Below, in pieces: positions 40,048-44,650 of a stretch of 64,000 nucleotides of DNA (the first letter of the stretch is position 1; every line of letters begins with the position of its first letter). The notes below the pieces were generated by a model, which was not told where the DNA came from, did not search any database, and worked only from the letters and a program-made list of their open reading frames with translations. The position numbers and the translations under genes were made by a program. This DNA is from Acuticoccus sediminis (GTDB lineage: Bacteria > Pseudomonadota > Alphaproteobacteria > Rhizobiales > Amorphaceae), in assembly GCF_003258595.1 (NCBI RefSeq), contig NZ_QHHQ01000010.1, positions 62,001 to 126,000 of the forward strand, given 5' to 3'.

Positions 40048-41403
40048 TCAGCCAGCCCGGGCGAGCGCGGCCTCGAGCCGGCGTGCGGTGGCGTCGCGGC
40101 CGAGGAGCAGGAAGAACGGGCCGAGCTCGGGCCCCTTCTCCTCGCCGGTCAACGCGAGGCGCAGCGGCATGAAGAGAGCCTTGCCCTTCGCGCCCGTCGC
40201 CGCCTTCACCGCACTGGTCCAGCCCTTGAACGTCCCCTCGTCCCACGGCTCGGCCGGGAGCGCCTGGAGCGCGGCCTCGAGCACCGGACGGTCGGCGCTG
40301 CCCGGCTGCACCGCCGCCGGCCCGTCGCGCAGGATCGCGATCCACGGACCGATGTCCCGCCGCCGGCCGAGGTTTCCGCGCAGCGCCGCCCAGACCGCGG
40401 GGTCCGTCACGCCGTAGGTCTCGGCGAGCCACGGAGCGACGGCCTCGAACGGCATCTCGTGCAGCAGCGCGGCGTTGAGGCGCTCCACGTCGGCGGGGTC
40501 GAACGTCGCCGGCCCGCGCGAGATCGAGGCGAGGTCCGCCCGGGCGCACAGCGCCGCGAGGTCGGCCACCGGCTCCACCGGGTGCGACGTTCCGGTCAGC
40601 ACCGCGAGCGAGGCGACCGCCATCGGCTCCACCTCCTCCGCCCGCAGCCGGGTCAGAGACAGCGGATTGTCCCGCTTCGACAGCGGCTCGCCGTCGGCGC
40701 GGGTCAGCAGATTGTGGTGGCCGAAGTCCGGCGCCGCGGCGCCCAGCGCCTCGAAGATCGCGATCTGTACGCCTGTGTTGGTGATGTGGTCCTCGCCGCG
40801 CACGACGAGGGTGACGCCCATGTCGATATCGTCGACCACGGAGGTCAGGGTGTAGAGGTAGGTCCCGTCCTCGCGAACAAGGACCGGGTCGGAGATCGAG
40901 TCGAGGTTGACCATCTGCTCGCCGCGGCAGCGGTCGTCCCAGGTCCGCGCCCCGTCCGGCAGCCGGAAGCGCCAGTGCGGACGGCGCCCCTCCGCCTCGT
41001 ATGCCGCCTTCTCGCCGGGCGTCAGCGCGAGGCCGGCGCGGTCGTAGACGGGCGGGCGGCCACGGGCGCGCTGCAGCGCGCGCTTGCGCTCCAGCTCCTC
41101 CGGCGTCTCGTAGCAGGCGTAGAGCGCCCCCGCCGCGCGCAGCCGGTCGGCGGCGGCGTCGTAGAAGGCCAGCCGCTCGGACTGCCGCTCCAGCCGCGAC
41201 GGCTCGATACCGAGCCATGCGAGGTCCGCCTCGATCGCCGCGGCGTACTCCGCCCGGGACCGCTCCACGTCCGTGTCGTCGAAGCGCAGGATGAAGCTGC
41301 CGCCGGTCTGCACGGCGACGGCGTAGTTGTAGAGCGCCGTTCGGGCGTTACCGATGTGGATCTCGCCGGTCGGCGACGGTGCAAAGCGGACGGTTTCAGG
41401 CAT
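40048..41403 (-). CDS. gltX: Glutamate--tRNA ligase (GluRS2 type)
   Basis: A 451-residue class I aminoacyl-tRNA synthetase. The signature [16 protein letters not shown] carries the HIGH-like motif and the second ATP motif is PLSKRDN. The catalytic domain ends around residue 280, and the shortened anticodon-binding part fits alphaproteobacterial GluRS2. Many alphaproteobacteria have two GluRS, one of which may charge tRNA-Gln for GatCAB. ATG at 41403 was chosen; a GTG directly before it is also possible. It overlaps the upstream NadE-like gene by eight bases. Confidence 0.93.
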
Positions 41404-42919
41404 CACGATATCGGTTGGTGATCGGGTAGCGTCGGTCTCCGGCCGGCCGGGGTGCCAGCCGCAGACGGGGTGTCGAGCGGCGCCGCATGACCTCGCCGTC
41501 GGCCACCCTCTCGGCCACCCATCGCACGGATCTAGCCTCGTAGCCGTCCTTAACCAGCTCGTCCACGCTGGCGTCGCCGTCGAGGAGCTCGGTCAGGATC
41601 CGGTCGAGCAGGTCGTCGTTCGCCGGCGCTCCCTCGAGGCCGCACGGCGCCTCGATCAGCGCCGCGGCGACCACCGGTCCCTCCGGCCCCTGCGCGCCGT
41701 CCGGGCGGGTGGCGTTGCGCCACCGGGCGAGCGCCTTCACCTCGCTGCGGCAGAGCTCGGCCATCGGGTTCACGCCGCGGCCGACCGGCCCGGCGCCCAG
41801 CGCGACGGTCGACGAGCTGGCCGAGCGCACGATGAGCCCGCCCGTGCCGACCGCCTCCAGCACCGCGTCCGCCATGCCCCGGCGCAGCACCGCGCCGTCC
41901 GCGGCGCCGAAGTCGCCGGAGGGTAGCGCCAGCCGGCGGCACGCGAGGCCGAAGGGCGCGGCGACGCCGGTCTCGTCGAAGGCGACCGCCTCGACCCGGT
42001 CGGCGCCCACCGCGTCGACTGAGATGGCGGCGGCGACGGCGGACTCCACGTCGTCCTCCAGCGCCAAGACGATCCGGTCCGCGCGCTTGAGGCGCACCAG
42101 GTCGCGCAGGCCCAGCACCGACGCCGACCAGATCGCGGCCTCCCCGTCAGGCAACGCGATCCGCTCGCCCGGTTCCAGCGTCCACCCGTCGTACGACCGG
42201 CGGAAGACGAGCCGCGCCGAGGTGGAGGTGAAGGCCGGGAGCTGATGCGTCAGCCGGCGGTCCGCCCCCAGCGCAAACGACGCACCGTCGAAGACGTATT
42301 CGTCGCGCCCGCCGACCGCGTTCACCACCACCAGCGGCAATTCGCTCTCGACCACCCGGGCGACGGCGATGTTGAGCCGCCGGTCCGCCTCGTAGGGCGT
42401 GTAGGGCGAGGCGACCGGCGCGATGAGGATCTCCGCCCCCGTCTCGGCGAGGCACTCCACCACGTCCGCGCCGAGGAGGTCCTCGCCGATGGGAAGGCCG
42501 ATGCGCACCCCGGCGATGTCCACCGGCCCCGGCATGTCCGCCGAGGCGAAGGCGCGCGACTCGTCGAACGGCCCCGCGTCGACCTCAACCTTGTGGCGCA
42601 CCTTGTCGACGCGGCCGTTCTGCAGGATGGCGCAGGCGTTGGTGAGGCGCCCCTCCTCCAGCCAGGGGGTGCCGATGGCGACGGCCGGGCCGTCGGCGAG
42701 CGCCGCCGCCAGTGCCTCCACCTCGGTCATCGCCTGCTCGGCGAAACCGTGGCGCCGGGCGAGGTCCCAAAGCGGGGCGCCGGAGAGGAACAGCTCGGGA
42801 AAGACCACCAGATCGGCCCTGGCGCTTCGGCAGGCCGCTTCGGCCATGGCGCAGTTGCCGGGAAGGTCGCCCAGCACGGGATCGAGCTGCTGGATCGAGA
42901 CGGTAAAGGTGTCGCGCAT
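41396..42919 (-). CDS. NadE-like protein with both active sites degenerate
   Basis: A 507-residue protein that matches glutamine-dependent NAD+ synthetase along its length: an N-terminal nitrilase-type glutaminase domain ([16 protein letters not shown]) and a C-terminal synthetase domain ending [11 protein letters not shown]. The glutaminase Cys is replaced (LPIGEDL for PICED). The synthetase P-loop SGGIDS is ALEDDVES. The TTGNKSE block is RSASSST, and about 40 residues are missing compared with active enzymes of about 550. Ligand residues such as the Lys of RHKVEVD remain. It cannot be an ordinary NAD+ synthase. It overlaps gltX, so both are translated together. Confidence 0.85.
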
Positions 42920-43249: not shown

Positions 43250-44650
43250 TTACGCCGCCTTGCGGGCGGTGCGGTCGCGCTTCTCGGCCTGGAGGTTCTC
43301 GGCCATCAGGAACGCCAGCTCGATCGCCTGCTCCGCGTTGAGGCGCGGGTCGCAGTGCGTGTGATAGCGGTCCGAAAGCGTCTCCTCCGTCACCGCGCGG
43401 GCGCCGCCGGTGCACTCGGTGACGTTGGTGCCGGTCATCTCGATGTGGATGCCGCCGGCGTGCGTGCCTTCCGCCCGGTGCACTGCGAAGAAGGACTGCA
43501 CCTCCTTCAGGATCCGGTCGAACGGACGGGTCTTGAAGCCGGCCGCCGAGATGGTGTTGCCGTGCATCGGGTCGCACGACCAAACCACCTTCTTGCCCTC
43601 GCGCTCCACCGCGCGGATCAGCGCCGGCAGGTGGTCGAGCACCTTGTCCGCGCCGAAGCGGCAGATCAGCGTCATCCGGCCCGCCTCGTTGTGCGGGTTG
43701 AGGATGTCGAGCAGCTCCAGCAGGCCGTCCGGCGACAACGACGGGCCGCACTTGAGGCCCAGCGGGTTGTTGACGCCACGGCAGTACTCGACGTGCGCAT
43801 GGTCCGGCTGGCGGGTGCGATCGCCGATCCAGATCATGTGGCCGGAGGTCGAGTAATAATCGCCGGTCAGCGAGTCGACGCGGGTGAACGCCTGCTCATA
43901 GCCCAGCAGCAGAGCCTCGTGGGAGGTGTAGAGCTCGGTCGACTGAAGCTGCGGCGTCGACTCGGCGGAGACGCCGCAGGCGCGCATGAACTCGAGCGCC
44001 TCGGTGATCCGATCGGCCAAGGCACGATAGCGATGGCCCTGAGGCGAGTCCTCCACGAAGCCCAGCATCCAGGAGTGGACGTTGTCGAGGTTCGCGTAGC
44101 CGCCCTGGGCGAAGGCACGCAGGAGGTTGAGCGTCGCGGCGGACTGCCGGTAGGCCATCTCCATCCGCTGCGGATCCGGGGTGCGCCCCTCCGGCGTGAA
44201 GGCGATGTCGTTGACGATGTCGCCCTTGTAGGACGGCAGCTCCAGCCCGTCGCGCTTCTCCATCGGCGACGACCGCGGCTTGGCGAACTGCCCTGCGATG
44301 CGGCCGACCTTGGTCACCGACGACGCCGACCCGTAGGTCAGGACGACGGCCATCTGCAGGAAGACGCGGAAGAAATCGCGGATGCCGTCCGGGTGATGCT
44401 CGGCGAACGCCTCGGCGCAGTCACCGCCCTGGAGCAGGAAACCACGACCCTCGGAGATCTCGGCAAGCTCGGCCTTGAGCGCGCGTGCCTCACCTGCAAA
44501 AACGAGCGGCGGCCAGGACGCAAGGCGTGTCTCCACGGCTTCCAGAGCCGCGGCATCGGGATAGTCAGGGATCTGCTTGACCGGTTTGGAACGCCAGCTG
44601 GACGGACTCCAGCCTGGCGCGCTGTGGCGAAGCGGTGTCTCGTTTTTCAT
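43250..44650 (-). CDS. 3-deoxy-7-phosphoheptulonate synthase, class II
   Basis: A 466-residue DAHP synthase of the plant/class II type, the first step of the shikimate pathway. Recognisable blocks are [32 protein letters not shown], the metal-binding Cys at [17 protein letters not shown] and [16 protein letters not shown]. The length fits the family. Class II enzymes are standard in alphaproteobacteria. It is a single-gene unit on the minus strand, 18 bases before the GGCT-like gene stop in the opposite reading order. Confidence 0.96.

Follow-up and report, generated by a model that had tools for sequence, protein, structure and literature searches.

A short NadE homologue stripped of both active sites in Acuticoccus sediminis, probably kept by selection as a protein-binding pseudoenzyme

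The gene at 41396..42919 (minus strand) of the window, a 64,000-nucleotide stretch of Acuticoccus sediminis contig NZ_QHHQ01000010.1 (positions 62,001 to 126,000 of the forward strand), encodes a 507-residue homologue of the short, dimeric-type NAD synthetase NadE2 (PRK13981). It is very probably a selectively maintained pseudoenzyme. Our best explanation as a whole, a pseudoenzyme kept by selection for a protein-binding role, perhaps docking of a PII protein, is probable.

According to the original prediction, the 507-codon frame is intact, the glutaminase Cys has become Gly (PIGED), the synthetase P-loop SGGIDS reads EDDVES and the TTGNKSE block reads RSASSST. The frame indeed encodes a full-length short NadE homologue, and alignment with active relatives bore out all three replacements; the loss of both working sites in a full-length frame, as judged from this alignment, can be regarded as confirmed. 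The nucleophile Cys (PICED in the active relatives) is replaced by Gly145, whose GGC codon is at 42485..42487 (minus strand; coordinates computed from the residue number). The assignment to NadE2 is based on the intact frame, on profile matches and on the fold match to NadE crystal structures. Pfam matches to CN_hydrolase (1.5e-15) and NAD_synthase (1e-6) place a nitrilase-like and an NAD synthase domain in one chain, as is characteristic of the short NadE family, and the score with the short-NadE model NF010588/PRK13981 was 305.7 bits, below the cut-off of 479. The nitrilase-like (glutaminase) domain comprises residues 1-245 (42185..42919, minus strand; alignment and codon model) and the synthetase-like domain residues 258-507 (41399..42148, minus strand; alignment, structure model and codon model). 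Of the Cys-Glu-Lys glutaminase triad of functional glutamine-dependent NAD synthetases, described in the available part of PMC6946656, Glu42 and Lys110 are retained, as is the second Glu of the site (Glu120), and the Cys is gone; two conserved Tyr positions and one conserved Trp position of the site are also altered. The synthetase-like domain has neither the SGGxDS P-loop nor the TTGNKSE motif of functional NAD synthetases, and loops are deleted from it.

A structure of the window protein predicted from 30 sequences had a mean pLDDT of 81.2 and a pTM of 0.84, with low-confidence parts in the C domain (residues 333-344 and much of 480-507, pLDDT <50). The best solved relatives were 4f4h, 3n05 and 5kha, with TM values to the query of 0.77-0.86. 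The rmsd was 6.5-6.9 Å for 3n05 and ~14 Å for 4f4h and 5kha, the latter value being taken to reflect a different domain placement. A pseudoenzyme is recognized by the absence of conserved catalytic residues from a retained fold and by purifying selection at the protein level; the former is indicated for the window protein by its sequence and predicted structure, and the latter was found for the window's clade and for the Cys-less copies of family f103 (see below).

A search for a second complete nadE, one of the checks proposed with the original prediction, identified in the window genome (G000; 7.76 Mb in 44 contigs) a separate, intact NadE of the long, octameric type (NF002730, 1044.7 bits). 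This protein matches the M. tuberculosis enzyme 3dla over its full length (882 bits) and has the motifs YPELC, PKAFLPNY, EICEDVW, SGGLDS and GTGDLSE in place. Long NadE was found in four of the ten genomes of the same family, f1 (G000, G004, G002 and G009), and in the other six (G001, G003 and G005-G008) the short NadE is of the active type and no long NadE scored over the cut-off. G000 and G004 combine the long NadE with a dead short NadE; no short NadE was detected at 1e-10 in G002 and G009. The short NadE of G004 is 70% identical to the window protein and has AGGVDA as P-loop, RAGSATA for TTGNKSE and the same Gly at the nucleophile position, and the substitution is thus shared by one sister species. 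In the gltX2 tree G000 and G004 are set apart from the rest with a support of 85, and these two together with G002 with a support of 100. As the P-loops of G000 and G004 differ, the loss of the synthetase site may partly postdate the split of the two species; the glutaminase changes are common to both and thus predate the tips. The slot of nadE is empty in the two genomes without a detected short NadE: in the G002 stretch (L168) neither anything nadE-like nor aroF was found upstream of gltX2, and in G009 (L180) a different frame of ~263 aa lies between aroF and gltX2.

Selection was estimated, as had also been proposed, with a codon branch model (GY94 type, F3x4, own script) from eight short NadEs, using the two tips G000 and G004 as foreground. 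The tip omega of the N (glutaminase) domain was 0.053 vs a background of 0.049 (2dlnL 0.06; 155 vs omega 1), that of the C (synthetase) domain 0.195 vs 0.027 (2dlnL 25.5; 70 vs omega 1) and that of the whole protein 0.115 vs 0.038 (2dlnL 19.9; 213 vs omega 1). For the G000/G004 pair alone, the values were 0.048 (N, dS 2.27), 0.182 (C, dS 1.55) and 0.102 (whole, dS 1.85), to be read as those of a clade of only two species whose dS (~1.6-2.3) is near saturation. For the same tips, the neighbouring genes gave 0.064 (gltX2) and 0.034 (aroF). Stem-branch omega values were discarded because dS ran to 35 (whole protein) and 38 (C domain). The glutaminase domain is constrained as in the active enzymes, and the synthetase domain is relaxed yet constrained. 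The rejection of omega 1 in the window's clade shows that purifying selection acts on the protein sequence and speaks against decay. Taking into account the separate complete NadE, the Cys loss shared with G004 and the purifying selection, a pseudoenzyme stands better than a decaying gene. Of the predicted "new, binding or regulatory role", this much was upheld, in the form of a presumed non-catalytic binding; the sensing of ligands for GluRS2 was not, for the following reasons.

The fate of individual residues was followed in eight Cys-less groups at 183 columns conserved to at least 95% in 62 active proteins (G028 as reference numbering). Columns kept by less than half of the members in every group were Tyr55, Asn123, Tyr124, Cys154, Trp158 and Lys186 in the N domain, and Met322, Met389, Met398, Glu407, Ser409, Tyr412, Tyr416, Gln474 and Lys535 in the C domain. 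In our own mapping by spacing, the counterparts of Tyr55, Tyr124 and Cys154 in the M. tuberculosis enzyme would be Tyr58, Tyr127 and Cys176, all three placed in the glutaminase site in the available part of PMC6946656. Among six representatives, 14/48 glutaminase-site positions were retained vs 276/372 in the rest of the N domain, and 16/66 synthetase-motif positions vs 268/612 in the rest of the C domain (p = 1.6e-9 and 0.0023, indicative values, as the site sets were self-chosen and not independent). Relief of backbone strain might explain why the position of the nucleophile holds Gly or Ala in every case. With the pocket residues lost and the fold retained, the evidence speaks against a sensor of glutamine, NAD or ATP, and the old ligand sites are unlikely to serve for sensing.

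The downstream gene, gltX2, codes for a second glutamyl-tRNA synthetase (40048..41403, minus strand, with ATG start); a higher-scoring gltX is located elsewhere in the window genome (G000:C4). The predicted eight-base overlap with the pseudo-NadE gene holds for the ATG at 41403 and becomes 11 bases if the GTG at 41406, also a possible start, is used. The upstream gene (43250..44650, minus strand), which we take to be a DAHP-synthase-like gene (aroF), is the upstream neighbour of nadE in several relatives as well. That the pseudo-NadE is a regulator or subunit of GluRS2 would agree with the overlap and with the operon-like order in the window and in G004, but the nadE-gltX2 junction with its 8-base overlap is present also in the active relatives G003, G005 and G006 and is therefore inherited, and G002 and G009 possess gltX2 with no short NadE detected. 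Moreover, gltX2 is not adjacent to nadE in G084, G135, G276 and the f103 stretches read. These observations make a partnership with GluRS2 very unlikely, and operon coupling to gltX2 was rejected as a general cause of retention. In other lineages in which both genes were seen in the fetched stretch, gltX2 is ~0.3 to 2.8 kb from the Cys-less nadE, and in several of the f103 stretches fetched it was not seen.

Short NadEs were then surveyed in genomes with a long NadE. In the sample of the window's order (397 genomes), 61 had a long NadE; short NadEs scoring 779-829 bits occurred in 18 of these, and degenerate ones in five (G000, G004, G084 of f35, G135 of f14 and G276 of f11). In the class sample (385 genomes), 25 had a long NadE, 22 of them new, and among these 22 an active-type short NadE was found in five and a Cys-less one in two f103 genomes, G741 (510 bits, over the cut-off) and G447 (468). 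Altogether, the 83 long-NadE genomes comprise 23 with an active-type short NadE (all 23 read), seven with a Cys-less one and 53 in which no short NadE was recognizable by HMM score. The Cys is present in 137 of 144 aligned rows, a census that counts a few genes twice (e.g. L018 as reference and as L029/L198). The seven Cys-less rows, those of G000, G004, G084, G135, G276, G741 and G447, are also the only seven without SGG[IVL]DS, a coincidence not attributable to chance; the Cys is replaced by Gly in six and by Ala in one. As Cys-less copies outside f1 and f103 were sought only in known long-NadE genomes, their association with long NadE is partly by design; the counter-sample consists of the 26 short NadEs that were read in genomes without it, each of which has the Cys. 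A scan of GTDB found the Cys in all 80 loci among the matches listed, from which near relatives may be missing, and plasmid searches yielded distant matches only. In f14, motifs are intact in seven of eight genomes and altered in G135 only. Two other genes drew attention. In G253 (C1:3814961-3816950), which also has a full-scoring short NadE, the long NadE gave two matches that lie in different open frames, possibly the reverse situation with the long NadE being lost. L075 (G366), a short NadE that otherwise matches well, has one in-frame TGA, which may stem from a sequencing error or mark a recent loss.

In an N-domain tree of 53 sequences, the Cys-less proteins of the order each grouped with active ones of their own or another family: G276 with G019 of f11 (support 93), G135 with G022 of f14 (74) and G084 (f35) with f50 (82). 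Within f103, two Cys-less clades are present, with supports of 100 and 97. Constrained N-domain trees of a 38-sequence set were compared by the AU test, which rejected a single origin of 11 Cys-less representatives (p 0.00196) as well as of the five Cys-less sequences of the window's order (p 0.00273). Supports were weaker in this set (G135 69, G084 73), and G276, the longest branch, moved to f103 (29). We count six origins (f1, f35, f14, f11, f103 g192 + G447 and f103 g398 + G851), and five to six appears a fair estimate from these trees, given that rejection of one origin does not by itself prove six and that several placements are modestly supported.

Family f103 was searched in 82 genomes not selected for long NadE, 72 of which had a match at 1e-60, and motifs were read in 58 sequences; these come from 53 genomes and include one gene twice. 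Twenty-five sequences lacked the Cys and had altered motifs: 17 full-length ones of g192, G447, G799, G816 and five of g398. In the 17 g192 copies, Glu-Lys-Cys is mostly Ala-Gln-Gly (Glu absent in 16/17, Lys in 17/17), the P-loop is TGGLDS or near and the second synthetase motif mostly STADRTD or near. The g398 copies have Ala for Cys in G741, G852, G853 and G854, and Gly with an intact SGGLDS in G851. Because the changes in the synthetase motifs (TGGLDS, TDG[IV]DS) are milder, loss of the glutaminase is clear in f103 and loss of an ammonia-dependent synthetase is not. The Cys-less copies L291 (G799, with an in-frame TAG) and L296 (G816) are shortened, and decay thus occurs in f103, too. In a further gene, L256 (G791), the only change is Cys to Gly (PIGED, codon GGC), with SGGIDS, STGNKSE, Glu, Lys and Glu intact; from its sequence it looks like a first step, a NadE without glutaminase nucleophile; a sequencing error might also explain it.

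The 17 Cys-less g192 species gave M0 omega values of 0.133 (N) and 0.129 (C), and 17 active-type g192 rows (including L256) 0.069 (N) and 0.053 (C). The constraint in this clade is the same for both domains and about half as strong as in the active set, so that it is the window's clade that is characterized by a preference for the glutaminase domain. For the four g398 copies omega was 0.060 (N) and 0.085 (C), with omega 1 rejected (2dlnL 335 and 369). Among the Cys-less carriers of f103, long NadE was shown in G741 and G447 only. Ten g192 carriers have a second short NadE (the 'b' copy, 40-41% identity). Motifs were intact in the three g192 'b' copies read and in a like copy of G788. These three share 89-91% identity with a gene on plasmid pAB510d of Azospirillum sp. 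B510 (L302), and it is this ~90% identity of three copies that is meant when g192 is called Azospirillum-like. The B510 gene lies between nicotinamide-nucleotide adenylyltransferase/Nudix and nicotinate phosphoribosyltransferase genes, and the two 'b' copies checked (L293 and L295) have kept these neighbours. A second short NadE thus occurs in an NAD salvage-like cluster in species whose other short NadE is Cys-less.

These data bear on what else the dead NadEs could be. An old gene drifting since the long NadE took over, in slow decay and not yet broken, would account for the relaxed C domain, for the failure to detect a short NadE in G002 and G009 and for the visible decay of the copies in G276, G084, G799 (in-frame TAG) and G816. 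However, omega is far below 1 in both domains and in the N domain indistinguishable from that of active enzymes, the frame is open in both species at a dS of ~1.9, and elsewhere Cys-less clades of 17 and four species are held at omega 0.06-0.13; a relic is therefore unlikely. Slightly less likely still is a prozyme, i.e. a dead NadE that acts as a bound regulator of the cell's active NadE. It has a precedent in the trypanosomatid prozymes, as far as the available parts of PMC5201418 and PMC3663545 describe them, and an active NadE is at hand in the long NadE of the window species, of G004 and of the other cases of the order (which were sought only among long-NadE genomes) and in the active-type 'b' copies read in f103. 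The partner would have to vary, however, from a long NadE in f1, f35, f14, f11, G741 and G447 to a second short NadE in the ten g192 genomes, and 53 of 83 long-NadE genomes do without a detected short NadE.

A changed enzyme, either one in which the old scaffold serves a new reaction or, for f103, a synthetase that depends on ammonia, could also explain the strong constraint, the Glu, Lys and second Glu kept in the nitrilase site of the window protein and the mildness of the synthetase-motif changes of f103. Against this, the Cys nucleophile is absent from all these proteins, the g192 proteins have lost the Lys throughout and the Glu with one exception, EDDVES and RSASSST stand in place of the ATP motifs of the window protein, and ligand-site residues are those least retained. 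We regard such an enzyme as highly improbable.

A selectively kept pseudoenzyme could have arisen as follows. In the ancestor of the window species and G004, the long octameric-type NadE would have taken over NAD synthesis, freeing the native short NadE upstream of gltX2 from catalysis. The freed protein would then have retained its fold but lost the nucleophile Cys (to Gly), the synthetase motifs and aromatic residues in the glutamine site. Since the glutaminase-like domain is kept at full strength, a non-catalytic, protein-binding function most likely resides there. If this function was already present in active short NadEs, several lineages could have kept such a protein independently; its role is dispensable, as no short NadE was detected in G002, G009 and the 53 long-NadE genomes mentioned above. 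By analogy, the binding partner might be PII (GlnB/GlnK/GlnZ), although this we consider rather doubtful. In Azospirillum brasilense GlnZ binds NadE2 and relieves its feedback inhibition, according to the part of PMC7196632 available. GlnZ also binds NadE1, and NadE without glutaminase domain was not fished; the contact of GlnZ with the glutaminase domain is the authors' speculation (PMC7646526, available in part). The dead NadE would then bind PII as a decoy or scaffold and make no NAD itself. The full-strength constraint on the glutaminase domain in the window's clade agrees with this idea, which is an agreement and not a test of it.

More generally, the active dimeric NadE may have a second, non-catalytic job in its glutaminase-like fold, possibly PII docking, which the approximately six independently arisen pseudoenzymes in Alphaproteobacteria would expose; upon takeover by another NadE the gene would be either lost or stripped to that job. 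We put this forward tentatively, as a serious possibility that falls somewhat short of an even chance. NAD synthetase makes an essential cofactor, and in M. tuberculosis the enzyme itself is essential according to the available text of PMC6946656. If selection repeatedly keeps dead copies where another enzyme provides the catalysis, a second role of the active enzyme is probable. Such a role would be invisible to an ordinary knockout, and the dead copies, which separate it from catalysis, make it testable. Homology-based annotation may class such genes among the NAD synthases.

A literature search, with most subscription journals outside its reach, found no NadE pseudoenzyme, and a word search of the available part of a paper on the NAD synthetase family (PMC3376133) did not find 'inactive' or 'nonfunctional'. 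The pseudoenzyme is known in kind; what is unusual is its repeated origin and the strength of the constraint. The window protein shares the two-domain fold and the sequence family of NadE2 (PRK13981; 4f4h, 3n05, 5kha), and the NadE2 of active relatives likewise lies upstream of gltX2. It differs from NadE2 in having no nucleophile Cys, no SGGIDS and no TTGNKSE, in scoring below the family cut-off and in its length, which is ~40 aa less than in active relatives from the genus. The NadE2 of A. brasilense is of the same short type and, according to the sources cited above, has documented binding to a protein (PII), but this NadE2 is active, whereas the window protein is dead and its binding to PII is proposed only by analogy. 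Prozymes and other pseudoenzymes, as described in the available parts of PMC10211241, PMC5201418 and PMC3663545, are dead relatives of enzymes in which, as here, the fold is kept. In contrast to trypanosomatid prozymes, which activate their own paralogue, the active enzyme of the window cell is the other type of NadE, and unlike in these cases, Cys-less NadE copies arose more than once.
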